The notes beneath the pieces were generated by a model. That model saw only the letters and a program-made list of their open reading frames with translations. It did no database searches and was not told the DNA's origin. The translations under genes and the position numbers were made by a program. Positions 5,747 to 64,000 of a stretch of DNA of 64,000 nt are shown one piece after another (the first letter of the stretch is position 1; every line of letters starts with the position of its first letter). Origin of the DNA: Oscillospiraceae bacterium (GTDB lineage: Bacteria > Bacillota > Clostridia > Oscillospirales > Oscillospiraceae). The stretch is taken from the NCBI GenBank assembly GCA_916988195.3, contig CAKASQ030000069.1, positions 1-64,000 of the forward strand, written 5' to 3'.

Positions 5747-6517
5747 CTATGGCCGGTAGCCGATGGCGCGGGAAATGACGCTGCCCGCCTCGCAGACCAG
5801 ACGCGTCGCCAGGAGGAAATCCTCCGAATAGACCTGCCGGAACATACCGACCACGCCGACAGCGTAGCGCACCTCTCCGGTCGCGTCACGCACCGGCGCG
5901 GAAACTGAGCGCAGACCGACCTTGAACTCCCCGTTTTCCACGGCGTAGCCCTGCTCGCGGATCTTCTGAAGCTCGGGCTGGAGCTGCTCAGGGGTAATGA
6001 GCGTATGGGGCGTATAGGCCTTGAACTCGGAAATGGACAGGAGCCTGCGGCACTCCGCCTGCGAGAGGTTGGCCAGAAACAGTTTTCCCTGCGACGTGCA
6101 GTGCAGCGGCAGCCGCGCGCCGACCTCAGAGACCACGCGAAGGCTCGCCCGGCTCTCTTCTTCTGCCAGCGTCACAACGGCTGCGCGGTCAAAGACCGAC
6201 AGGAATACGGACTCTCCGAGCTCCGCGCAGATTTTCTGCATATGCGGCCGCGCAATCGCGCCGATGTCCCAGGCATTGGACACCGCACAGCCATATTCAA
6301 ACAGGCGAATCCCGAGCCAGTAGCGCCCGTTCGGTGTCTGCTCGATGAGACCGGCCTCGCGCATCGTGGAAAGAAGCCCGTGAATTGTGCTCTTCGGCCA
6401 ACCTGTCGCCTGATAGAGCTCGGTGAGCGTGGCGGGCTTAGTACGCTCGGCGAGCAGGTCCAGAAGCCGGATGGCCTTTGCCACCGAATGTATCGTTTTG
6501 CTTTCAAGCTCTGCCAT
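5747..6517 (-). CDS. IclR-family transcriptional regulator
   Basis: The 256-aa protein starts after AAAAGGAG. Residues of about 8-70 form the winged helix (SVAKAIRLLDLLAERTKPAT, GWPKSTIHGLLSTMREAGL). The remainder is the IclR effector domain, with GKLFLANL and a C-terminal GLRSVSAPVRDATGEV segment typical of the family. IclR proteins usually control carbon catabolism from small organic acids. The neighbouring broken dhaK and dapA-like pieces suggest it once governed a sugar-acid or dihydroxyacetone operon, which is inference. Confidence 0.85.
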   Translation of the reverse strand: MAELESKTIHSVAKAIRLLDLLAERTKPATLTELYQATGWPKSTIHGLLSTMREAGLIEQTPNGRYWLGIRLFEYGCAVSNAWDIGAIARPHMQKICAELGESVFLSVFDRAAVVTLAEEESRASLRVVSEVGARLPLHCTSQGKLFLANLSQAECRRLLSISEFKAYTPHTLITPEQLQPELQKIREQGYAVENGEFKVGLRSVSAPVRDATGEVRYAVGVVGMFRQVYSEDFLLATRLVCEAGSVISRAIGYRP

Positions 6518-6654
6518 AGTACCGGCTCCTTTTCGTTTATTTTATATAGTGTATCATGCTTCCGGTTCGCAGGCAAGCTTTTACATTCGCCATTGCCGAA
6601 ATTTGTTCGTGTACCTGCATATCTGCCTCACGCCTCTGCGCACACCGTGCAAAA

Positions 6655-6692
6655 CGGCAAAACCGGGCTCCCGCTTGCGCGAAAGCCCGGTG
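6655..6692 (-). terminator. Terminator of the dhaK remnant
   Basis: An 8-bp stem (ACCGGGCT / AGCCCGGT) lies 17 bp downstream of the minus-strand dhaK stop, followed on that strand by TTTT. It is the original 3' end of that gene. Confidence 0.65.
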
Positions 6693-6708
6693 GGGGGATT
6701 CTTAAAAA

Positions 6709-7478
6709 TCAGAAGACGGCGTACGGGATTTCGACCGGGTAGTCCAGATACTTCTTCATTTCGTCGTCAAGACGGAGCAGGGACACCGAGCAGCCCGCCA
6801 TATCGATGGAGGTGCAATACTCGTTGACATAGCTCTTGAAGACCTTAATGCCGGCGTCCTTGAGCATCTGCGCAACCTTGTTGTACGCGATGTACTGCTC
6901 CATGAGCGGCATGCCGCCCAGACCGTTGACCATGACAGCGACCTCATCGCCTGCCTTGAAGGGCAGATCGTCGAGGCAGTTCTGCGTCATCAGGTCGACA
7001 ATCTCGTCGGCGGGCATCAGCTTCGTGCGCTGACGGCCGGGCTCGCCATGCAGGCCGACGCCGATTTCCATCTCGTCGTCGCCGATTTCGAACGTCGGAG
7101 CGCCCTTGGCCGGGGTGGTGCAGGAGGTCAGGCCGAAGCCCATGCTGCGCACATTCGCGTTCACGCGGTCGGCAAGCTCAACGAGCTCATCGAGGCTCTT
7201 GCCCTCTTCCGCTGCGGCGCAGACGATCTTATAGCCGAGAATCGCGCCCGCAACGCCGCGGCGGCCCGCGGTGAACGTGCTGTCCTTGACTGCCACGTCG
7301 TCGTCAGCAATCACGATCTTGGCGTTGATGTCGTCCATCTCGCACATTTCGCAGGCCATACCGAACTGGCCGCGGTCACCCGTGTAGTTCTTGACCATGA
7401 ACAGAACGCCGGCGCCGGTATCGACAGCCTTGGCGGCCTCATAGATGGCGTCAGCCGTCGGAGCGGCGAAAACGGGAG
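6709..7478 (-). pseudogene. dhaK: dhaK-like dihydroxyacetone kinase subunit, N-terminus missing
   Basis: From VFAAPTADAIYEAAKAVD to the stop the frame follows the DhaK family closely, including VKNYTGD, the GRRG.AG region, GL..CTTPAKG and VNGLGG. Full-length DhaK is about 330 residues, and here about 255 C-terminal residues remain. The N-terminal part with the GGSGHEP substrate site is gone. The frame stays open upstream of about 7478 but encodes Arg/Ala-rich sequence unlike DhaK that is antisense to a dapA-like piece. The gene is therefore truncated at a rearrangement point and probably inactive. DhaK normally binds dihydroxyacetone for PTS- or ATP-dependent phosphorylation. Confidence 0.75.
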
Positions 7479-49174: not shown

Positions 49175-49852
49175 ATGATTTTGAATCCTAAATTACTGAT
49201 CGTTGATGATGAACGCGGTATTGTTGATATGATACAGAGTTATTTTCAAACACAATATGATATTCTGACTGCTTATAGCGGACAAGAAGCGCTCAAAAAA
49301 GTAGCCTGCAAACCAGATTTAATTTTATTGGACATCAATATGCCGGGAATGGATGGTCTGACTGTATGCCAGCAGATACGGGAACACATTGCCTGTCCCA
49401 TTCTTTTTTTGACTGCTCGTATTGAATCCAGCGATAAGATCATTGGATTTCAGGCTGGGGCGGATGATTATATCGTCAAGCCCTTTGATTTGGATGAATT
49501 GGGGGCGCGTATTGCCGCACATCTGCGCCGGGAGCAGCGACGCCAAAATAATTCGGCAGTGCGCTTCTTTGGTGAATTGATACTGGATTATTCCGCCCGA
49601 ACAGTTACAATCAATAATCTGAACATCCCTCTATCTAAGAGGGAGTTTGAGATTGTAGAACTTTTATCCCTCAATGCAGGACAGGTTTTTGACCGCGAGC
49701 GAATTTATGAGCTTGTGTGGGGCTTGGATGGGGACGGAAACAGCGATACAATTATGGAGCACATTCGGAAAATACGCGCTAAATTTGCAGCACATACATT
49801 GCACAATTACATTGAAACGGTTTGGGGGTGTGGTTATCGGTGGAACGCCTAA
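49175..49852 (+). CDS. OmpR-family response regulator
   Basis: The ATG follows CGGAGGTG. The 225-aa protein has a receiver domain (residues 5-118; VDDERG, phospho-acceptor Asp53 in LLDINMPGMDG, later Lys in VKPFDLDEL) and a winged-helix output domain (about 130-222; LSKREFEIVELLSLN, YIETVWGCGYRW). It overlaps the kinase gene and probably controls the adjoining ABC exporter. Confidence 0.9.
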   Translation: MILNPKLLIVDDERGIVDMIQSYFQTQYDILTAYSGQEALKKVACKPDLILLDINMPGMDGLTVCQQIREHIACPILFLTARIESSDKIIGFQAGADDYIVKPFDLDELGARIAAHLRREQRRQNNSAVRFFGELILDYSARTVTINNLNIPLSKREFEIVELLSLNAGQVFDRERIYELVWGLDGDGNSDTIMEHIRKIRAKFAAHTLHNYIETVWGCGYRWNA

Positions 49853-50940
49853 AAAATATGGGACTAAAGAAATCTTTCCTGCTATTATCCCTCTCCTGTT
49901 TGGCAGCGGCATTTCTCCTGCTTGGGGCAGTTATCTTCCTTTGCCGAGGCATTGAAAACCATTATCCTTTAGGCGGTGTAGAAATCTTGTCGGATGGCTC
50001 TGTTGTACCTCTGCCGTCTCCTACGGTGTCACAACAGCGTATTTTAGCTACCCTAAACATTGTGCAGACGGTTTCCTGTATTCTTTTTCCAGTAGGCGGA
50101 TTGATTGTTTCAGTCTTTCTTTTTTATTATCTCAAATTGAAACAGCCTATTTCCTGCCTACAAAATGGCATTATGCGGATTCAGAATAATGATCTGGATT
50201 TTTCGCTGCCGATTTTGTCTAACGATGAAATGGGACAACTATGTGCTGCCTTTGAAGAAATGCGGAGTGAACTTCTGAAATCGAATCGGCTGTTGTGGCA
50301 ACAGGCCGAGGAACGCAAACGGCTCAATGCCGCATTTTCCCATGATCTGCGTAACCCGATTACGGTATTAAAAGGAAGTGTAAAACTTTTGCGGCAAGGT
50401 ATTCAGGACGAACAGACCATAGACCGGCTGGAAAGTTACACTTTACGGATCGAGCAGTATGTAGAAGCTATGAGCAGTGTTCAAAAGTTGGAACAACTCT
50501 CTGTTAAGCCAAAAGAAATCAGACTATCAGTTTTGCAGAGTGAATTGCAGGAAACAGCACGACTGTTAGCGCTATCCAAAAAAGTTTCTGTTTTAGTACC
50601 ATCAGGCGGAACAGTTTGTATAGATCACGGGCTATTTCTTACCGTAGCGGAAAATCTGATTGGAAATGCGGCGCGATTTGCAGAAAAAGCAATCTCTATT
50701 CAAATAACGCTGCAAAATGATTCTATGACCTTGAATATAGAAGATGATGGTGCTGGTTATCCGCTGTCTCTCATGCAGAATGGGCCAAACCCCTTTGAAA
50801 CGACAAGTAGTAATTCCTCACATTTCGGAATGGGGCTTTACAGCAGCAGAATTTTATGTGAAAAACATGGTGGCCGATTGATTTTGGAAAATCGGGCCAG
50901 GGGCGGTGCATCCGCAACGGCTATTTTTCATTTCGTGTAA
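49840..50940 (+). CDS. Sensor histidine kinase
   Basis: The likely start is GTG at 49840, 13 bp inside the regulator gene. The 366-aa protein has two membrane helices (residues of about 11-33 and 80-102) around a short outer loop, a HAMP domain, the phospho-acceptor His168 in FSHDLRNP, the N box ENLIGNAARFA near residue 271 and G boxes DDGAGYPL and GMGLYSSRI. The short sensing loop fits kinases that sense peptides or antibiotics through a partner ABC transporter. Confidence 0.85.
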   Translation: MERLKNMGLKKSFLLLSLSCLAAAFLLLGAVIFLCRGIENHYPLGGVEILSDGSVVPLPSPTVSQQRILATLNIVQTVSCILFPVGGLIVSVFLFYYLKLKQPISCLQNGIMRIQNNDLDFSLPILSNDEMGQLCAAFEEMRSELLKSNRLLWQQAEERKRLNAAFSHDLRNPITVLKGSVKLLRQGIQDEQTIDRLESYTLRIEQYVEAMSSVQKLEQLSVKPKEIRLSVLQSELQETARLLALSKKVSVLVPSGGTVCIDHGLFLTVAENLIGNAARFAEKAISIQITLQNDSMTLNIEDDGAGYPLSLMQNGPNPFETTSSNSSHFGMGLYSSRILCEKHGGRLILENRARGGASATAIFHFV

Positions 50941-50949
50941 TCTTTGAGC

Positions 50950-50972
50950 GATTTTTGAGATTTATCATTTAC
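50950..50972 (+). promoter_or_regulatory. Shared operator-like element before the ABC genes
   Basis: GATTTTTGAGATTTATCATT matches the element at 49132-49154. It lies just before the hairpin that covers the ABC gene's ribosome binding site. Confidence 0.45.
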
Positions 50973-51009
50973 ACTCTCCTTATACCACAAATAAGGAGAG
51001 TGTTTTTTT
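50971..51009 (+). promoter_or_regulatory. Hairpin covering the ABC gene ribosome binding site, with T7 run
   Basis: A 13-bp perfect stem (ACACTCTCCTTAT and its complement) with a 7-nt loop is followed by TTTTTTT and immediately by the ATG at 51010. The 3' arm contains AAGGAGAG, the only ribosome binding site for that gene. The structure can thus act as a terminator and also hide the site. Confidence 0.65.
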
Positions 51010-51684
51010 ATGAATATTGAGGCAAAGAATTTATCAAAGATTTATGGTGACGGTGAAAACCGAGTAGTGGCTTTGGATCATGCAAATCTCGAAATTGTAT
51101 CCAGCGATTTTATTTCTATTATGGGACCATCTGGAAGCGGAAAAAGCACCTTGCTTCATTTGCTTTCCGGCTTGGATAAGCCATCTTCCGGCTCGCTGAC
51201 CTACGATTGTAAAGATATTTACAGTTACAGCGATAAGGAGTTGTCGGCATTCCGCCGGAAACGGATTGGATTTATTTTTCAGCAATTTAATCTGCTTCCG
51301 GTTCTGACGGCGAAAGAAAATATTATCATGCCTCTTTTGCTGGATAAGCAAAAACCGGATGAAGCATACCTGAAACAGCTTACAGAACTGCTTGGCATTC
51401 AGGGCCGCTTGGAACATCTGCCCCATGAGTTATCCGGCGGCCAGCAGCAGCGTGTAGCCATTGCCCGCGCTTTGATTGCAAAGCCGGATGTAATTTTTGC
51501 GGATGAGCCTACGGGAAATCTGGACAGCAAAAGCGGCGGCGAAGTCATGGAACTGCTTCAAAATGTATGGAAAAAGATGGGGAAAGCTCTCGTTGTCATT
51601 ACCCATGACAGCCATATTGCACGAATGGCAGACCGGCAGTTTCAGATTGTAGATGGTGTGCTTACGGAGGTGACAGCGAAATGA
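51010..51684 (+). CDS. ABC transporter ATP-binding protein (MacB/FtsE type)
   Basis: The 224-aa protein has Walker [10 protein letters not shown] (residues 39-47), the Q-loop [10 protein letters not shown], the signature ELSGGQQQR and Walker [14 protein letters not shown]. Such LolD/MacB-type subunits work with FtsX-like permeases, here the next gene, with which it overlaps by four bases. The unit next to a two-component system suggests peptide or antibiotic efflux or sensing. Confidence 0.9.
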
Positions 51685-54173
51685 AATCTTATCGTACATT
51701 AGCATTGAAAGAACTGCTGTCCCAAAAAGTCACTTCTATTCTTATTTTGATTGCCGTTGTGCTGTCTACTATGATGACAACCATTGTAGGACAATCCATT
51801 GGCGTACTTAGTGCAATGCGGGAACAGCAGGCCATCGCTATCGGAGGAAACCGATATGCCACTTTTTTGCAGATGAATGCAGATCAGCTTCACGCACTGG
51901 AACAGGATGAGCATCTTTCCTATGTAGGGAAATCTATTTATATGGGAAGTTTAGAACTCTCCCCATCTCTTACCCTTGGTTTGATGGAATATTTGGATGA
52001 CAATGCCGCTATCTATCCGTCCAGTACCAGTGTAGAAGAAGGTCGTCTGCCGGAAGCCCCGATGGAAATAGCTCTTTCGGAAGATATTCTGAAATATCTT
52101 GGCTTTGAGGGCGGTATTGGAGATAAGATTACACTTTCACTGCAAAAAAATCTTCGCCACAACATTGCGGACAGCTATTCCTATACAGCAGAATTTGTTC
52201 TTACAGGGATATTGAAAAATAACTACTTGGGATATACAAGCGGCACTGTTACAGGAGTTGTAGGGGAAGGAACTGCTGAACAACTTCTACCGGAATCTTA
52301 TATTTATTACAATGTGGATATTCGGACTGCCGATAAAAAGAGTTTTCAAGCAGTTGTCGATGACATCAATAAGGAATTGAACATCCATGAGCTTGATACC
52401 AGCTACAATATTGTATATTTGAACGCTTTGGGAATTTCCTATACTGCAAATTCCGAGGGTGCTAATGATAAGGGATTCTCTTTTATGACAGTCGCAGGGA
52501 TATTAGTGGGTACTTTGATTTTGCTGGCTGCTGGTCTTGTGATTTACAACATTCTGAAAATATCTGTATCAAAACGGATAAAGGGATATGGAACACTTCG
52601 GGCTATTGGAGGCGAAAAAGGACAGCTTTATCAGATCATTGTAATTGAAGTAATCCTATTATGCCTGATGGGGATTCCTATTGGTATGCTTCTTGGCTTC
52701 TTGAGTGCCAGAGGAATTTTAGAGGCAGCTACCGGCTTGGTTTCCCCTGAATTGTTCTTGGTTCAGGATGCTTCTGAATTGAAAACTCTAATAGCAGAGA
52801 ACAGTTCTTTGAATGGAACCTTACTGGTTTTAAGCGGAGCAATCACTTTGGCGTTTGCGCTGTTTGCAGCATTGCCAGCAGCCAGATCAGCCGCAAGGGT
52901 ATCCCCCATTATGGCGATGTCTGGAACAAATCTGAAAATTCGCCGCAGAAAGCGTAAAACAAAGAAAATCCATAATTTTGAAGCATACTATGCCCGTCTG
53001 AACTTAAAGAGAAATAAAGGCCGTACTGCAATTACAATTTTGTCCCTTGTTATGAGTATCACGGTTTTTATAGCGCTGCAAGGGTTTTCCTCTCTCCTGA
53101 ACGCTGCAAGCGCACTGCAAGATAACCATTTAGGAGATTATCAGATCACAAATGAAAGTGTTGGATTTACCACAGATGATCTGAACACTTTGCGGAAAAA
53201 TGAAGCTGTGCAAAGTGTAGCCGCCATACAATTTTCGCTTTACGAACAAAATGAAAATGGGCTGCTCGATGAAATCAGTCTTGAATTTCAACTGAAACCC
53301 GGTGAAACTTTTCAGGTTGTCGGATTGAACGATGAATATTGGGATTATTTTATGGGGGATCAATTACCAGAAGAACAGCTTGGACAACTGAAATCAGGGG
53401 ACGCCTGTATAGTAAGGAATCCTATTCCCATAAGCTACGGCAAAGATGTTCTTGAATTTACAAATATAGAGGCCGGAGAAAACATCTGTGTTGCGGGAAT
53501 GGAGCTGAATGTTTTGAAAACCTTGGATGGCTATGACGGTTATCTTGGTATTGGAAATGGCGGTTTCACAAATGGTGTTCAGGTGATCGTTGATGATGCT
53601 ATCTATGAACGCCTGACGGGAAAAGATACCTATTCAGAGTTTTTGCCTACGCTGAACGAGGGCGCAGACAGGGAAATTTTTGATACATTTATCGAGGCAT
53701 TTTGTGATAGGACGCCGGGGACAACATTCTTGTCGTATGAAGAAAGCGACCAGCAACTGAAAGAGAGCTTTGCACAGATTCAAATGCTGGCATGGGGGCT
53801 GATCCTTTTCGTTGGCCTGATCGGTATTCTTAATATCATCAATACCGTTTACACAAATATTCACACCAGAGTAACAGAAATCGGTATGCAGCGGGCCATT
53901 GGAATGAGCGCCGGTAGCCTTTATAAAACTTTTCTTTGGGAAGGTGCATATTACGGAATCATTGCCTCTGTGATCGGAAGCGTACTGGGATATGTTTGTA
54001 CGATCTTCATTGAGGCGGCCACGAGCGACACCATCCAACTTGTTACAATCCCTGTCATGCCCATTCTTGAAGCAACCCTCTTGGCAGTAGGAGCTTGCTT
54101 GCTGGCAACAGCAATTCCGCTACGGAAAATTTCAAAAATGAATATTGTGGATTCGATTGAAACGGTTGAGTAG
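51681..54173 (+). CDS. FtsX-like ABC permease (830 aa)
   Basis: The product has an N-terminal helix, a large outer domain, a triple-helix FtsX unit at about residues 265-410 (GILVGTLILLAAGLVIYNIL), a second start-like helix at about 450 (AITILSLVMSITVFIALQGF), another outer domain and a C-terminal triple-helix unit (LAWGLILFVGLIGILNIINT). Ten helices with two FtsX units fit the large mechanotransmission-type permeases. The gene overlaps the ATPase gene and forms its partner. Confidence 0.85.
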   Translation: MKSYRTLALKELLSQKVTSILILIAVVLSTMMTTIVGQSIGVLSAMREQQAIAIGGNRYATFLQMNADQLHALEQDEHLSYVGKSIYMGSLELSPSLTLGLMEYLDDNAAIYPSSTSVEEGRLPEAPMEIALSEDILKYLGFEGGIGDKITLSLQKNLRHNIADSYSYTAEFVLTGILKNNYLGYTSGTVTGVVGEGTAEQLLPESYIYYNVDIRTADKKSFQAVVDDINKELNIHELDTSYNIVYLNALGISYTANSEGANDKGFSFMTVAGILVGTLILLAAGLVIYNILKISVSKRIKGYGTLRAIGGEKGQLYQIIVIEVILLCLMGIPIGMLLGFLSARGILEAATGLVSPELFLVQDASELKTLIAENSSLNGTLLVLSGAITLAFALFAALPAARSAARVSPIMAMSGTNLKIRRRKRKTKKIHNFEAYYARLNLKRNKGRTAITILSLVMSITVFIALQGFSSLLNAASALQDNHLGDYQITNESVGFTTDDLNTLRKNEAVQSVAAIQFSLYEQNENGLLDEISLEFQLKPGETFQVVGLNDEYWDYFMGDQLPEEQLGQLKSGDACIVRNPIPISYGKDVLEFTNIEAGENICVAGMELNVLKTLDGYDGYLGIGNGGFTNGVQVIVDDAIYERLTGKDTYSEFLPTLNEGADREIFDTFIEAFCDRTPGTTFLSYEESDQQLKESFAQIQMLAWGLILFVGLIGILNIINTVYTNIHTRVTEIGMQRAIGMSAGSLYKTFLWEGAYYGIIASVIGSVLGYVCTIFIEAATSDTIQLVTIPVMPILEATLLAVGACLLATAIPLRKISKMNIVDSIETVE

Positions 54174-54261: not shown

Positions 54262-54375
54262 AAGGAGCTTTTGTCTATTTGCTGTGCTGATTCTGGTACT
54301 GTTGGCGGCCACTGGCGCAGCAGTTTTCCGCATTTACCCCAAGCAAAGGAGGCGAACAATATGGGCAAAATTTTA
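54262..54375 (+). pseudogene. C-terminal remnant of a membrane protein (CD1107-like)
   Basis: A frame bounded by a TAA upstream encodes a helix (AVLILVLLAATGAAVF) followed by a basic end (RIYPKQRRR), the usual tail of CD1107-like mobile-element membrane proteins. It runs into the start of the next gene. No upstream part is present, so it looks like a decayed 3' end. Confidence 0.35.
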
Positions 54376-54783
54376 ATATTATCCGTCACTGACCACGAAG
54401 AACATATACTCAATAAAATTATGGAAACTATCGCAAACGAGCCGGAGCTTAACCATATTGCGCCTCCTCTCCCTTGCAACATTCTTTCTTTTACAAATCT
54501 GGAAATCCGGCTGAAGGAGCAGACAGTGTCCTGCAGCGGTCAACTTGTTACTCTGACTCACCATGAGTTTGCTGTCCTTACATATCTGGCTCGTCATCCT
54601 GGCTGGGTATTCTCAGCCAGCCAGATTTATGAGGCCGTATGGGATAGAGACGGTGAACGCTGCGGCACTGCCGTTGCCAGTATCATCAGTCAGATCCGGC
54701 GCAAGTTGACGCCGGATACACCAAAGGGTGGCTATATTCGCACTGTACTGGGCAGTGGATATAAATTTGAATCCGTGATATAG
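54361..54783 (+). CDS. Orphan OmpR-type winged-helix protein (copy 1)
   Basis: The ATG follows AAAGGAGGCG. The 140-aa product has a short N-terminal part (KILILSVTDHEEHILNKIME) in place of a receiver domain and a Trans_reg_C winged helix (about 45-140; LTHHEFAVLTYLARHPGWVF, GTAVASIISQIRRKL, GYIRTVLGSGYKF). No phospho-acceptor domain is present. It is nearly identical over most of its length to the gene at 57803, and a third copy lies at 62185. Target unknown. Confidence 0.75.
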   Translation: MGKILILSVTDHEEHILNKIMETIANEPELNHIAPPLPCNILSFTNLEIRLKEQTVSCSGQLVTLTHHEFAVLTYLARHPGWVFSASQIYEAVWDRDGERCGTAVASIISQIRRKLTPDTPKGGYIRTVLGSGYKFESVI

Positions 54784-54925: not shown

Positions 54926-55279
54926 TTACAGTTTTGAACCACAAGGCGGTGTAATATCCAATCCTTCAAGAAAGTGTATTCCCCAGTTACACATAGAATC
55001 TAATACCGGAATGATACTTTTTCCAAAAGCGGTAAGAGAATACAAAGTTTTAGGTGGTTTTTCTGGAATTACTTCTCTGTGAATCATGCCGCATTCTTCC
55101 AAATCGCGAAGTTGTTGTGAAAGCATTTTAGGGGTGGCTTTTGGAATTAAGCGTTGTAATTCCATGTAGTGCAAAGGTTTTTCTATCAAATGCCAAAGAA
55201 TGAGCGGTTTATATTTTCCTCCGATTAGAAAAAGTGTGGCTTCCACTGGACAACTAAATTGATCTTTTTGATAATTCAT
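54926..55279 (-). CDS. HxlR-family transcriptional regulator
   Basis: The start ATG at 55279 follows AAAAGGAG. The 117-aa protein shows the HxlR winged helix (CPVEATLFLIGGKYKPLILWHL, LQRLIPKATPKMLSQQLRDLE, EVIPEKPPKTLYSLT). Cys10 stands at the place of the redox-active Cys of YodB/HypR-type regulators. It is divergent from a nitroreductase gene, a classical pair in which the regulator represses the enzyme until electrophiles react with the Cys. Confidence 0.85.
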   Translation of the reverse strand: MNYQKDQFSCPVEATLFLIGGKYKPLILWHLIEKPLHYMELQRLIPKATPKMLSQQLRDLEECGMIHREVIPEKPPKTLYSLTAFGKSIIPVLDSMCNWGIHFLEGLDITPPCGSKL

Positions 55280-55428
55280 TTTTATGAATTCACTCCTTTT
55301 TGGGTACTTTCTTTGAGGGAAGTATCTACCTGAAAAGTGCAATCTTGTTATTCTGCTGCACCATGTTAAAATTAGTACGACGATTGAACATGTCAATTAA
55401 ATTATACAACACCAAGAAAGGATTGACC

Positions 55429-55950
55429 ATGATGAATTTTATTGAGATTGCAAAAAAACGGTATTCTGTACGCAATTACAGCAGCAAAAAGGTGGAAAAA
55501 GAGAAGCTTGATAAAATTTTGCAGGCTGCTCATGTTGCACCAACAGCAGCAAACTTACAGCCGGTTCACTTAATTGCAGTAGAAAGCAAAGAGGGACTGG
55601 AAAAAATCAGCAAAGGGGCAAATATTTATAATGCTCCTCTTGCAATTATTGTATGCGCAGATCATAACAAAGCATGGGTTCGCCCATTTGACCAAAAGCA
55701 AACCGGAGACATTGACGCAGCTATCCTAACAGACCATATGATGTTGGAGGCAACAGAATTAGGTTTAGGTACCGTATGGGTATGTTACTTTCAGCCTGAT
55801 GTTATCCGAAAAGAATTTGATTTGCCCGATAATTTAGAGCCAATCAATATTTTAGTAATCGGTTATGGAAATGAAGAAGCTGCAGATACAGAAAGACATG
55901 ACCATCTGAGGATTCCACTCACCGACTTAGTTTCGTATGAAAAACTGTAA
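55429..55950 (+). CDS. FMN-dependent nitroreductase-family oxidoreductase
   Basis: The start ATG at 55429 follows AAAGGA. The 173-aa protein has the NfsB/FrhA-like pattern: KRYSVRNYSSKKV near the N-terminus (FMN phosphate binding), HVAPTAANLQPVHL, and TELGLGTVWVCYFQPD. The family binds FMN and reduces nitro compounds or quinones with NAD(P)H. The next genes import riboflavin and make FMN, its cofactor. Confidence 0.85.
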   Translation: MMNFIEIAKKRYSVRNYSSKKVEKEKLDKILQAAHVAPTAANLQPVHLIAVESKEGLEKISKGANIYNAPLAIIVCADHNKAWVRPFDQKQTGDIDAAILTDHMMLEATELGLGTVWVCYFQPDVIRKEFDLPDNLEPINILVIGYGNEEAADTERHDHLRIPLTDLVSYEKL

Positions 55951-55998
55951 CTGAGTATAAGATGATTTCCGAAATGCTTCCGAACTTTCTTCAACTCA

Positions 55999-56027
55999 TT
56001 GCTTCCAAAAGTGGTTGATGTTATAAT
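55999..56027 (+). promoter_or_regulatory. Promoter of the riboflavin unit
   Basis: TTGCTT (55999-56004) and TATAAT (56022-56027) are 17 bp apart. The FMN riboswitch starts about 25 bp downstream. Confidence 0.7.
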
Positions 56028-56051
56028 TGCGGGGAAACAACTGAATAAAAG

Positions 56052-56161
56052 TGTCTTCGGGGCAGGGTGAAATTCCCGATTGGCGGTAAAGTCCGCGAGC
56101 GTAAAACGCACGATTTGGTGTAATTCCAAAACCAACAGTATAGTCTGGATGAAAGAAGATA
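56052..56161 (+). ncRNA. FMN riboswitch aptamer (RFN element)
   Basis: The sequence follows the RFN consensus from start to end: CTTCGGGGCAGGGTGAAATT, then a TTGGCGGT segment with AGTCCGCGAGC, then GATTTGGTG.AATTCC, ACCAACAGTATAGTCTGGAT and the closing GAAGAA that pairs with the opening TCTTC. FMN binding should lead to termination at the hairpin at 56222-56262. It controls the RibU gene and the kinase fusion behind it. Confidence 0.95.
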
Positions 56162-56221
56162 TGGTTAGATTTCCGCAGATTTTGAGAGGCTTACTTTCTT
56201 TTCTGTGGCCTAATTATAATG

Positions 56222-56262
56222 TTAACACCTGAAAGACCTTTTCTTTTGGGTGTTAATTTTTT
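56222..56262 (+). terminator. Riboswitch expression-platform terminator
   Basis: An 8-bp stem (TTAACACC/GGTGTTAA) with a 19-nt loop is followed by TTTTTT. It lies between the aptamer and the ribosome binding site of RibU (GGAGG), as expected for transcriptional control. Confidence 0.8.
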
Positions 56263-56281
56263 GTCACGGAGGAAAGCAATT

Positions 56282-56926
56282 ATGAACAGTAAAACAAAAA
56301 GAATCACCGCTATTGGGATGCTATGTGCAATCACTTATGTCACCATGGTTGTTGGCAGGATTCCGATTATTCTATTCTTAAAGTATGACCCATCAGATGT
56401 TATTGTAACTTTAGGCGGCTTTATTTGGGGACCGATGACTTCCTGTATCGTATCTGTCATTGTGGCAACCCTTGAAATGATTACAGTAAGCGATACCGGA
56501 ATATTAGGTTGTATCATGAATATCGTACAAACACTATCTTTTGCGTGTACGGCGTCTATCATTTACAAAAAAAAGCACACTCTATCTGGTGCACTGATTG
56601 GTCTGGCATCGGGGTGGCTAATAACGGTTATTGTTATGCTGCTGTGGAACTATTTGGTAACACCACTTTATATGGGGTATCCAAGAGAAGCGGTTGTGGA
56701 ATTGTTACTCCCTGCCTTTCTTCCATTTAACTTGTTGAAAGGCGGGTTAAATGCATCCATTACCTTTTTATTGTATAAGCCCATAGTTACCGCTTTAAGA
56801 AAAAGTGGATATATTTCTACTTTGGAAAAAGACACAAGGCAGCAACATACCGGTCTGCTTATACTGGCAAATTTCATCATTGTGACTTGTGTTTTGATCA
56901 TCCTTTCAATGAATGGGATTATATGA
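56282..56926 (+). CDS. ribU: RibU-like riboflavin ECF transporter S component
   Basis: The ATG at 56282 follows CGGAGG. The 214-aa protein has about six helices and the S-component outline (AIGMLCAITYVTMVVGRIPII; KYDPSDVIVTLGGFIWGP, where PSD/L motifs of RibU lie). The FMN riboswitch upstream supports riboflavin as substrate. It needs an ECF energising module from elsewhere in the genome. Confidence 0.85.
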   Translation: MNSKTKRITAIGMLCAITYVTMVVGRIPIILFLKYDPSDVIVTLGGFIWGPMTSCIVSVIVATLEMITVSDTGILGCIMNIVQTLSFACTASIIYKKKHTLSGALIGLASGWLITVIVMLLWNYLVTPLYMGYPREAVVELLLPAFLPFNLLKGGLNASITFLLYKPIVTALRKSGYISTLEKDTRQQHTGLLILANFIIVTCVLIILSMNGII

Positions 56927-57627
56927 GGATCGAAATGAAAGAAAATACGAATGCGCCTATTTACACACTAACAGGAATCGTTATACACGGCCGAGGTATT
57001 GGAAAGCATGTGGGGACACCTACCGCAAACATGGAAATAGCAAAAAATACATTTTTGCCAAAGACAGGGGTATATGTGGCAGATATTCTTTTAAGTGACA
57101 ACAGATATTATGGTGTTACTCATATTGGGGCACGCCCCACACTTGATAATGATGATTCTGTTTCAATCGAAACACATATTTTTGATTTTGATAGGGACAT
57201 ATACGGGAGTACGATAACTGTCAACCTATATAAGAAATTGAGAGAAGTTAGAAAATTTAACGAATTATCATTGCTGCTTGCACAAATTGCAAACGACCGG
57301 ACAATGGCACTAAAATTTTGGGGATTGAAGCAAGCAAGTCACACCTTACACATTGATGTTAACCGGCATTGTGTAATATTAGAACAGAAGGAAGTTTATT
57401 TATCAACAAACGAATTTGAAGTTCTTTATCTGCTACAACAGTCTCCTCAAACCACATTCACAAAAGAGCAGATTTATGAAAAGATTTGGCATGAGCCTAC
57501 AAATAACCATTTGCACGCAGTAGAAAATACAATTTTCCAAATACGCAAAAGGCTAAAACCATATTGCAAGGGGCACGAGTATATAAAAACTGTAATTGGC
57601 TACGGTTATAAGTTTAATTCTGGGTAA
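56923..57627 (+). CDS. Riboflavin kinase fused to an OmpR-type winged helix
   Basis: The ATG at 56923 overlaps the RibU stop; ATG at 56935, after GAGG, is the other option. Numbered from 56923, residues 12-127 are a bacterial flavokinase domain: GIGKHVGTPTAN (PTAN at 33-36), YGVTHIGARPT (63-73), the general-base Glu83 in SIETHIFDFD and the LREVRKF segment. The FAD synthetase domain of bifunctional RibF is absent. Residues 142-234 are a Trans_reg_C winged helix (LSTNEFEVLYLLQQSPQ, FQIRKRLKPY, YIKTVIGYGYKF). It should make FMN and bind DNA. The pairing recalls archaeal RbkR and Bacillus RibR, but domain types differ. Confidence 0.85.
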   Translation: MRIEMKENTNAPIYTLTGIVIHGRGIGKHVGTPTANMEIAKNTFLPKTGVYVADILLSDNRYYGVTHIGARPTLDNDDSVSIETHIFDFDRDIYGSTITVNLYKKLREVRKFNELSLLLAQIANDRTMALKFWGLKQASHTLHIDVNRHCVILEQKEVYLSTNEFEVLYLLQQSPQTTFTKEQIYEKIWHEPTNNHLHAVENTIFQIRKRLKPYCKGHEYIKTVIGYGYKFNSG

Positions 57628-57802
57628 GGTGATATTTAAGCATTAGAACAAATGGCCCCAGTCCCAGAGTTTTGAAGTCTCTATATTCAGCAACCTTTTA
57701 CAAATAGAAAAGGCTCTGGCACTATATCCCCATCTCATTTAAGATTTTCCAAAAACAGAACCACTGCTTATGCACATAAGGAGAAGAAAGGATGTGAACA
57801 AT

Positions 57803-58228
57803 ATGGGCAAATTTTTAATATTATCCGTTGCAGACCACGAAGAACATATACTCAATAAAATTATAGAAGCTATTGCAAACGAACCAGAGCTTGACCATAT
57901 TGCTCTCCCACCCTCTAACGCCAGCCTCTCCTTTCCAGACCTTGAAATTCGGCTAAAGGAGCAAACTGTATCCTGCAACGGTCAACTTGTTACTTTGACT
58001 CACCATGAGTTTGCTGTCCTCGCTTATCTGGCTCGTCATCCTGGCTGGGTATTTTCTGCCAGCCAGATTTATGAGGCTGTGTGGAATGTGGACGGTGAGC
58101 ACTGCGGAACTGCCGTTGCCAGCGTCATCAGTCAGATACGACGCAAGTTGACGCCGAATATGCCCAAGGGTGGCTATATCCGGACTGTACTGGGCAGCGG
58201 ATATAAATTTAACAGTTCTCCCTTTTAA
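57803..58228 (+). CDS. Orphan OmpR-type winged-helix protein (copy 2)
   Basis: The ATG at 57803 has AAAGGATG upstream. The 141-aa product is a near-copy of the 54361 product (same KFLILSVADHEEHILNKI start, LTHHEFAVLAYLARHPGWVF and GGYIRTVLGSGYKF). It has no receiver domain. The two copies bracket the flavin module. A bidirectional terminator follows. Confidence 0.75.
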   Translation: MGKFLILSVADHEEHILNKIIEAIANEPELDHIALPPSNASLSFPDLEIRLKEQTVSCNGQLVTLTHHEFAVLAYLARHPGWVFSASQIYEAVWNVDGEHCGTAVASVISQIRRKLTPNMPKGGYIRTVLGSGYKFNSSPF

Positions 58229-62184: not shown

Positions 62185-62619
62185 CTATTCTGCCATACCC
62201 TGCGGAACTTCAAATTTGTATCCGCTCCCCAAAACAGTACGGATATAACCCGCTTTCGGCATATCCGGAGTCAGTTTTCTGCGGATCTGACCAATGACGC
62301 TGGCAACGGCTGTTCCGCAGTTTTCACCATCCTCACCCCACACTTCTTCATAGATCTGCCCGGCAGAAAATACCCAGGATGGGTGGTTTGCCAAGTATAC
62401 CAATGTCGCAAATTCCCGATGGGTCATAGAAATCAACTCGCCGTTTCGGTGTACAGTTCTCTCCTTCAGGCGAAGCTCCAATCCCGGAAAAACAAGAGTA
62501 TTACAAGGGTGAGATGACACAATATGGTCAAATCCCGGCTCGGCTGCAATAATCTCCATAATTCTGCTAAGTATATATTCTTCATGGTCTGTTACCGACA
62601 ATACAAAGATTTTTCCCAT
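62185..62619 (-). CDS. Orphan OmpR-type winged-helix protein (copy 3)
   Basis: The 144-aa product (KIFVLSVTDHEEYILSRIME start; MTHREFATLVYLANHPSWVF; GYIRTVLGSGYKFE end) is a more distant paralogue of those at 54361 and 57803. It has no receiver domain. It lies beside a DUF6440-like gene and an FtsX permease on the same strand, which suggests it regulates them. Confidence 0.75.
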   Translation of the reverse strand: MGKIFVLSVTDHEEYILSRIMEIIAAEPGFDHIVSSHPCNTLVFPGLELRLKERTVHRNGELISMTHREFATLVYLANHPSWVFSAGQIYEEVWGEDGENCGTAVASVIGQIRRKLTPDMPKAGYIRTVLGSGYKFEVPQGMAE

Positions 62620-62989: not shown

Positions 62990-64000
62990 TTATCTCATTT
63001 CCGGTCGAAGAATAACCCGTTTGAATAAGAACATTGTTGCACCAAAATAGGTCAGGTAGATTGCACAGAATAGCAGGATCGTCACCAGACCATAAAGAGG
63101 TACAAGTCCCTGCTGCAAGATTGCCTCTCCGAAAAAGAACTGTGCCCCTGTGATCAGTAAAACCGTCAGCAAAAGAGGGAATAGCAGTGGGATCAAAAAG
63201 ACTGTGGACAGTTCCCTGCGGATCAGGGAAGCCTGCCTGTGGCTCGGTACACCCAAACGGTCAATGACTGCATAATTCTTCTGGTTTTTGTCTATGGCAG
63301 AAAGCTGCTCAAATGCAAGAACCGAGCAGGATAGAATGATGAAAATAATGCTTAAATACAATCCGCAGAACGAAATAGCTGTAAATCCCGTCAGCGAATT
63401 GGCAACGCCCCACGCCTTTACTGTAACACCCATCGTTACTTTTTCCGGAAGCTGTTGACCGGACTGCAATTCCGGCTGCCATTTCCCACTGTTCAGGAAT
63501 TGCTTCAAGTCGCTTTTCAATTCCGGGTATCCGCCATCTTCCAGTTTCATCGCCAGACGGATTTTTTCTCCGACGAATTGTGAAGCTGCTTCATCCGGCA
63601 GAACAAGTACATATCCCTTCGTTCCGGCCATTTGATACTGCTCCATCGGCTCCGTCAGGATCGGCGTTTCCGCAGCAGACAAGGTCCGACCATTGAATGT
63701 GATCTCCGGCTGCTGCGCCAAGCCCTGTCGGATTCCGTCCATATAGTTCCATGTATCGCAATGAACCAAAAATTCGTTGTTGCTCATGGAAACAGGAGAA
63801 AGCCCCAGGATTTCACGCAAATGGTTATAGTCGGACAAGGACAAGGCTTCGATCGGTTTTTCAGGAACCGCATACAGATAATAACTCACAGAATCCTCGA
63901 CTCCACAATGCTCCTCTGTAAAGGAAACGATGGAATCCATGTTGGATTTTTCCAAAGGTGCATCAATCGCCACGCCTGCATCATAGGGATAATAGGCTTT
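62990..64000 (-). CDS. FtsX-like ABC permease, C-terminal part (cut by window edge)
   Basis: The frame stays open to the last base, so the N-terminus is outside. The visible 336 residues have an outer domain and a FtsX-type helix block (ISFCGLYLSIIFIILSCSVLAF; IPLLFPLLLTVLLITGAQF; LYGLVTILLFCAIYLTYFG). This resembles BceB/VraE-type permeases for antimicrobial peptide resistance. A GAATTGCT/AGCAATTC hairpin lies just after its stop. A matching ATPase is probably beyond the edge. Confidence 0.7.
   Translation of the reverse strand, partial: KAYYPYDAGVAIDAPLEKSNMDSIVSFTEEHCGVEDSVSYYLYAVPEKPIEALSLSDYNHLREILGLSPVSMSNNEFLVHCDTWNYMDGIRQGLAQQPEITFNGRTLSAAETPILTEPMEQYQMAGTKGYVLVLPDEAASQFVGEKIRLAMKLEDGGYPELKSDLKQFLNSGKWQPELQSGQQLPEKVTMGVTVKAWGVANSLTGFTAISFCGLYLSIIFIILSCSVLAFEQLSAIDKNQKNYAVIDRLGVPSHRQASLIRRELSTVFLIPLLFPLLLTVLLITGAQFFFGEAILQQGLVPLYGLVTILLFCAIYLTYFGATMFLFKRVILRPEMR

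Follow-up and report, generated by a model that had tools for sequence, protein, structure and literature searches.

What is known of flavin control in bacteria mostly concerns the FMN riboswitch. The locus considered here, located in a 64,000-nucleotide stretch of an Oscillospiraceae genome (hereafter, the window), raises the question of what is done by a riboflavin kinase with a DNA-binding domain of its own in an operon that also carries such a riboswitch, and which of the neighboring genes belong to the same unit. A preliminary description of the window saw there a compact five-gene flavin module on an apparent mobile element, which could provide a self-sufficient response to electrophiles or nitro drugs. 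Profile matches confirmed the presence of all the parts that it named, i.e., the HxlR regulator, the nitroreductase (NTR), the FMN riboswitch, the RibU importer, and the riboflavin kinase (RFK) with a DNA-binding domain, hereafter referred to as RFK.wHTH (wHTH, winged helix). Absent from that description were the operator (55967-55984), the terminator (56221-56257), and the start of the unit at the operator. The features of the block are as follows:

54926-55279, minus strand: HxlR-family regulator (PF01638, E=2.6e-28), divergent from the nitroreductase; the profile search covered 54926-55258, and the ATG start at 55279 was read from the sequence
55432-55950, plus strand: nitroreductase, NTR (PF00881, E=2.1e-27), outside the predicted operator/riboswitch control
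55967-55984, plus strand: putative operator, direct repeat TTCCGAA-ATGC-TTCCGAA (7+4+7, 11-bp period, PhoB-box-like)
55999-56027, plus strand: predicted promoter, -35 TTGCTT (55999-56004), 17-nt spacer, -10 TATAAT (56022-56027)
56049-56164, plus strand: FMN riboswitch aptamer, or RFN element (Rfam RF00050, 113.4 bits)
56221-56257, plus strand: intrinsic terminator (hairpin followed by a run of T), serving as the riboswitch's expression platform
56282-56926, plus strand: RibU-type riboflavin ECF S component (PF12822), with orthologs beside every fusion
56923-57627, plus strand: RFK.wHTH (PF01687 + PF00486)

When 84,980 species genomes were scanned, four close intact relatives and one decayed copy (L005) emerged, and further searches added L087, L088, L099, L110, and L124. 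With L005 not counted, the set comprises 10 intact fusion loci (the window, L001-L004, L087, L088, L099, L110, and L124), six of which (the window, L087, and L001-L004) are close relatives, i.e., the independent depth of the comparison is about five lineages. RFK.wHTH is a rare protein: its whole-genome frequency amounted to 2/394 in the order, 3/400 in the family, 1/391 in the class, and 2/329 in the phylum (the counts include the window's own genome where it was sampled), and the family of G341 yielded two fusions and one standalone RFK among 247 genomes. It was found neither in the viral contig collection nor, as a near-full-length match, in phage records. In the decayed copy (L005, 7453-8703), ribU lacks its 5' end, the riboswitch and the operator are missing, and RFK.wHTH is frameshifted; an unrelated HxlR-type gene abuts it.

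Judging from the comparison of these loci, the conserved mobile unit is operator-riboswitch-RibU-RFK.wHTH (55967-57627), hereafter the rib unit, which starts at the operator and not at HxlR. The DNA similarity of the window to L001, L003, and L004 starts at 55963-55966 and stops at 57619-57644, i.e., at or beside the operator and within approximately 20 nt of the rfk stop codon. The neighbors of the unit are relaxase and MobC-like genes in L001 and L004, ParM in L003, an integrase in L088, and genes resembling chromosomal ones in L099, L110, and L124 (names assigned by inspection of the sequences). The varied neighbors, along with the similarity edges at the operator and rfk, suggest that the rib unit is a mobile entity; six of the fusion loci are situated in or beside mobile elements. 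For the window, the location in a mobile element was borne out by genes for a tyrosine integrase, a T4SS coupling protein, a VirB4/TraG-like ATPase, and an actin-like ParM. Across 24.4 kb, this element shares 98.4% identity with a circular Subdoligranulum record of 247 kb.

Aligning the upstream regions brought out a direct repeat, perfect in its two halves, at the border of the conserved block. In all 10 intact loci, YTCCGAA-N4-YTCCGAA lies exactly 14 nt 5' of the -35 box, and the layout 7-4-7-14-(-35)-17-(-10) is invariant (YTCCGAA, 4 nt, YTCCGAA, 14 nt, TTG, 17 nt, TAT); in L088, L099, L110, and L124, with a protein identity of 42-63%, the stretches separating the boxes show no further relationship, and the flanking sequence has diverged. 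The L124 locus was obtained once the motif was already fixed, and its match is exact. The fixed spacing between operator and promoter could stem partly from shared descent. The 3.2-Mb host genome contains the exact repeat TTCCGAA-ATGC-TTCCGAA only once, and the degenerate form occurs once per genome in 8/8 fusion genomes searched, at the rib operon wherever the locus was checked. A wider regulon, sought via the repeat in these genomes, was not found: with a single match per genome, none backs the site. The repeat is also absent from the sister genome G1147, whose RFK is devoid of the wHTH. Among 2.9 million viral contigs, the repeat combined with the -35 TTG was matched five times, with none of the tested window genes in these matches, and the fuller operator-plus-promoter pattern was not encountered.

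The operator spans about -67 to -50, centered near -58, without reaching the -35 and -10 boxes. By its sequence, it corresponds to a PhoB-type operator, in which 7-bp direct repeats recur every 11 bp 5' of -35; both TTCCGAA halves come close to being palindromes (TTC-N-GAA), so it is the spacing that carries the direct-repeat reading. Where the unit occurs in different families and in another class, the operator goes with it, and its presence tracks the wHTH, not RFK activity or the riboswitch (L099, L110, L111, and L124). L111 possesses the riboswitch, ribU, and a standalone RFK, and lacks both the wHTH and the operator, the repeat being absent genome-wide; L110 retains the fusion and the operator with a short leader devoid of the FMN riboswitch.

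RFK.wHTH combines a Flavokinase domain (PF01687, E=2.9e-37, residues 14-131) with a Trans_reg_C domain (PF00486, E=3.6e-17, residues 156-231), the latter being a PhoB/OmpR-type winged helix with the recognition helix at about residues 198-211. In the AlphaFold model (mean pLDDT 78), the first half matches RFK modules (5a89, 1q9s) and the second half matches PhoB-type DNA-binding domains, including 1gxp (PhoB on the pho box). The N-terminal FMN adenylyltransferase domain (~185 aa) that distinguishes bifunctional RibF is lacking; it is present in nearly all other RFK matches fetched, the exceptions being L041, with 60 aa before the RFK match, and L045, cut at the contig end. The earlier assignment to monofunctional kinases, i.e., PF01687 without a FAD-synthetase domain, thus holds. 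The window protein displays the PTAN motif and the catalytic Glu of ATP-type RFK as T34, N36, and E83, mapped by alignment to T208, N210, and E268 of the Corynebacterium ammoniagenes FAD synthetase (CaFADS), in which replacement of these residues by Ala or Asp abolishes FMN production (PMC2573891).

The catalytic motifs are intact in eight of the 10 fusions. In L099, the kinase lacks the equivalents of T208 and N210, and the operator, riboswitch, and recognition helix are kept; the protein itself is intact, its structure model preserves the RFK fold, and the codon-position GC pattern indicates that the kinase half is still coding. In L124, the equivalent of E268 is missing, with the helix and operator intact. 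The recognition helix HAVENTxFQIR is invariant at 10 of 11 positions across the 10 fusions, and invariant positions make up 31/93 of the wHTH vs. 19/120 of the RFK region. The loss of catalytic residues in two lineages that kept the helix and the operator suggests a flavin-sensing role for the RFK domain. RFK.wHTH very probably regulates the transcription of its own operon. The fusions form one clade (support 0.934), whose sister is the standalone RFK of L111 (0.832); in the simplest history, a riboswitch-ribU-rfk operon gained the winged helix and the operator once and later moved onto mobile elements.

The second layer of control belongs to RNA. The aptamer exceeds the RF00050 cutoff by a wide interval (113.4 vs. 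66.2 bits) and is accompanied by an expression platform: the terminator hairpin at 56221-56257 (-16.9 kcal/mol, z -4.8) lies between the aptamer and ribU and is retained, with altered sequence, in L004, L088, and L099. With such a strong terminator just 5' of ribU, the riboswitch most likely works by premature termination. Downstream, the start codon of RFK and the stop codon of ribU overlap (ATGA), and the RibU ortholog in L099 also matches PF07155, the profile of the riboflavin ECF S component.

The reading that we favor, at a probability of roughly 0.78, is that of a mobile operon for riboflavin acquisition with two levels of control, where RFK.wHTH would bind the repeat and its RFK fold would sense the ligand. 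Encoded by the second gene of the operon, RFK.wHTH would occupy YTCCGAA-N4-YTCCGAA as a tandem dimer and, being bound, set initiation at the ribU-rfk promoter. The RFK fold would serve as the sensor, the binding of flavin (riboflavin vs. FMN) and/or ATP-Mg altering the binding to DNA. The nascent mRNA would then be checked again, with the FMN riboswitch terminating it before ribU when FMN is plentiful; the riboswitch would represent a second, faster FMN check on the same transcript. In most members, RFK.wHTH would also make FMN and, hence, report its own reaction in a trigger-enzyme-like manner. DNA binding, ligand, and sign are what we infer here, starting from the domains, the operator and its spacing, their co-occurrence, the catalytic losses, the riboswitch, and the terminator seen in the DNA. 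As for the sign, activation at low FMN is slightly favored, because the site is situated 5' of -35, clear of the core promoter, at a constant phase.

A repressor is the less likely alternative: the FMN- or riboflavin-bound form of RFK.wHTH would block initiation, and FMN would be a co-repressor duplicating the action of the riboswitch. The near-consensus -10 boxes at the 17-nt spacing suggest that an activator may be unneeded, and in L110, where the riboswitch is absent, the regulator alone would then supply the shut-off. However, an operator placed at about -67 to -50, off the -35 and -10 boxes and with an invariant 14-nt phasing, is more typical of activators touching RNA polymerase. A role of the wHTH as an accessory to the folding or oligomerization of a plain RFK, with the repeat bound by a host regulator or remaining as a relic of recombination, is very improbable. 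One would then expect no operator that tracks the wHTH rather than RFK or the riboswitch and accompanies the unit across families and into another class, nor a recognition helix that is the most conserved part of the protein and remains, together with the operator, after catalysis was lost twice; the kinase motifs still intact in 8/10 members and the six loci in or beside mobile elements speak for it.

The electrophile/nitro-drug module of the preliminary description, in which HxlR would sense thiol stress and the rib genes would supply FMN to the NTR, appears improbable as well. Three loci indeed have the HxlR-NTR pair 5' of the rib unit, namely the window, L087, which represents the same element, and L002, whose DNA is 94.7% identical, but the five-gene order was limited to them: the unit occurs without the pair beside it in six of the 10 (L001, L003, L004, L088, L099, and L110), and L120 harbors the pair without the unit. 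An NTR precedes the unit in four loci, i.e., the three above and the distant L124, where the NTR ortholog (75.6% identity) has no HxlR nearby. The latter case suggests that no single accident accounts for the linkage of the NTR; according to the loci compared, the nitroreductase is a recurrent yet separable neighbor of the rib unit. Thus, what stands of the mobile flavin module is the rib unit with its import and FMN-forming parts, without HxlR and the NTR as fixed members. Likewise, two control layers (the riboswitch and the DNA-binding kinase) are predicted for the ribU-rfk operon, but neither would act on the NTR, since the operator, promoter, and riboswitch are all downstream (3') of it. 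Since no terminator was detected in the interval from the NTR to the operator, transcription may read through.

The supposed self-sufficiency is also unlikely: RibU requires the host's shared ECF module, and the host already possesses a RibF and a second riboswitch-controlled ribU. The RibF encoded by the 3.2-Mb genome is an ordinary one, and the second FMN riboswitch is located on the same contig outside the window (C69, 116506-116617, L090), 5' of another ribU-like gene that is 30% identical. No lumazine synthase was detectable in the host genome; hence, the host is probably a riboflavin auxotroph depending on imported riboflavin, for which additional regulated uptake is plausible cargo.

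The closest functional parallel comes from archaea. As Rodionova et al. reportedly described in 2017, RbkR is an RFK fused to a winged helix, which regulates riboflavin genes along with its own gene; CTP is said to strengthen its DNA binding and FMN to weaken it. Two later papers describe it as both a gene regulator and an enzyme (PMC8305020, PMC7693651). RFK.wHTH is likewise a riboflavin kinase with a winged helix and a predicted regulatory role. At the same time, the HTH of RbkR is N-terminal and its kinase is an unrelated, CTP-dependent one, whereas RFK.wHTH features an ATP-type PF01687 kinase and a C-terminal PF00486 domain. A PhoB-box-like operator, an FMN riboswitch, and carriage on mobile elements further set RFK.wHTH apart. 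With its different kinase and domain order, it would work like RbkR and is not a member of that family; on the evidence of these architectures, the two arose independently.

Other cofactor enzymes, e.g., BirA and NadR, possess their own DNA-binding domain. They resemble the proposed system in that one protein makes the cofactor form and would report to its own vitamin operon, and differ from it in the vitamins served and in the enzyme part, which is not homologous. With the PhoB/OmpR response regulators, RFK.wHTH shares the winged-helix fold and the direct-repeat operator with an 11-bp period; the DNA-binding domain is the only part in common, as the RFK fold takes the place of the receiver domain and the phosphorelay is absent. 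RibR of Bacillus subtilis is a monofunctional, RNA-binding flavokinase (PMC7693651). It is, as proposed for RFK.wHTH, a riboflavin kinase with a second regulatory function, concerning riboflavin genes that also carry FMN riboswitches. However, RibR acts on the riboswitch RNA and sits in a sulfur operon, whereas RFK.wHTH possesses a DNA-binding domain and a putative operator in the DNA and belongs to the ribU operon; Pfam recognized no RNA-binding domain in it. The order of aptamer, terminator, and ribU is usual for the Firmicutes operons under the FMN riboswitch (PMC3766115, PMC4418817, PMC12934955). The kinase-regulator gene and the upstream operator go beyond these operons, and no mention of them was found in the three papers. 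Nor was an earlier account of a bacterial flavokinase-winged helix regulator found in the open-access literature.

In a broader perspective, we lean, with some reserve, toward the view that a bacterial ATP-type RFK has turned into a flavin-sensing transcription factor independently of RbkR. It would have been stacked on the FMN riboswitch, replaced it in one lineage, and lost catalysis in two, representing an enzyme-to-regulator transition in progress and spreading via mobile elements among gut Clostridia. If true, bacteria would possess a second, DNA-level flavin sensor built from a kinase, a convergent counterpart of the archaeal RbkR. The natural variants with and without the kinase residues, the riboswitch, or the wHTH could then help to understand why RNA and protein sensors are both kept for one vitamin. 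It would also mean that vitamin acquisition travels among gut bacteria as cargo together with its own regulation.

A few minor observations concern the surroundings of these loci. In L124, a gene for a low-molecular-weight phosphatase (PF01451; 9512-9991, minus strand) separates the NTR from the operator of the rib unit; its product might conceivably take part in FMN turnover. In L001, a GNAT-acetyltransferase-like gene (6328-6834, minus strand) adjoins the rib unit, possibly by coincidence; the last gene of the B. subtilis rib operon is the GNAT gene ribT (PMC12542839).

Directly upstream of the HxlR-NTR-rib block of the window, a response regulator, a histidine kinase, and a MacB/FtsX-type ABC transporter are encoded at 49175-54173, a set of the kind linked to antimicrobial peptides. 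Pieces of an FtsX-like permease are present at 62990-63973, and more regulator-kinase-ABC sets, resembling the former at low identity, follow beyond the window on C69 (64001-84000, L089). The window also harbors three receiver-less paralogs of the PhoB-type wHTH (54361-54783, plus strand; 57803-58228, plus strand; 62185-62619, minus strand), which are 68-84% identical. Two of them are direct repeats flanking the HxlR-NTR-rib block and could serve as recombination arms for its gain or loss. Another receiver-less wHTH protein is encoded in L002 (8968-12937) between MgtA-type ATPase-like and MgtC-like genes, which suggests that transporters are more generally paired with PhoB-type winged helices dedicated to single operons.
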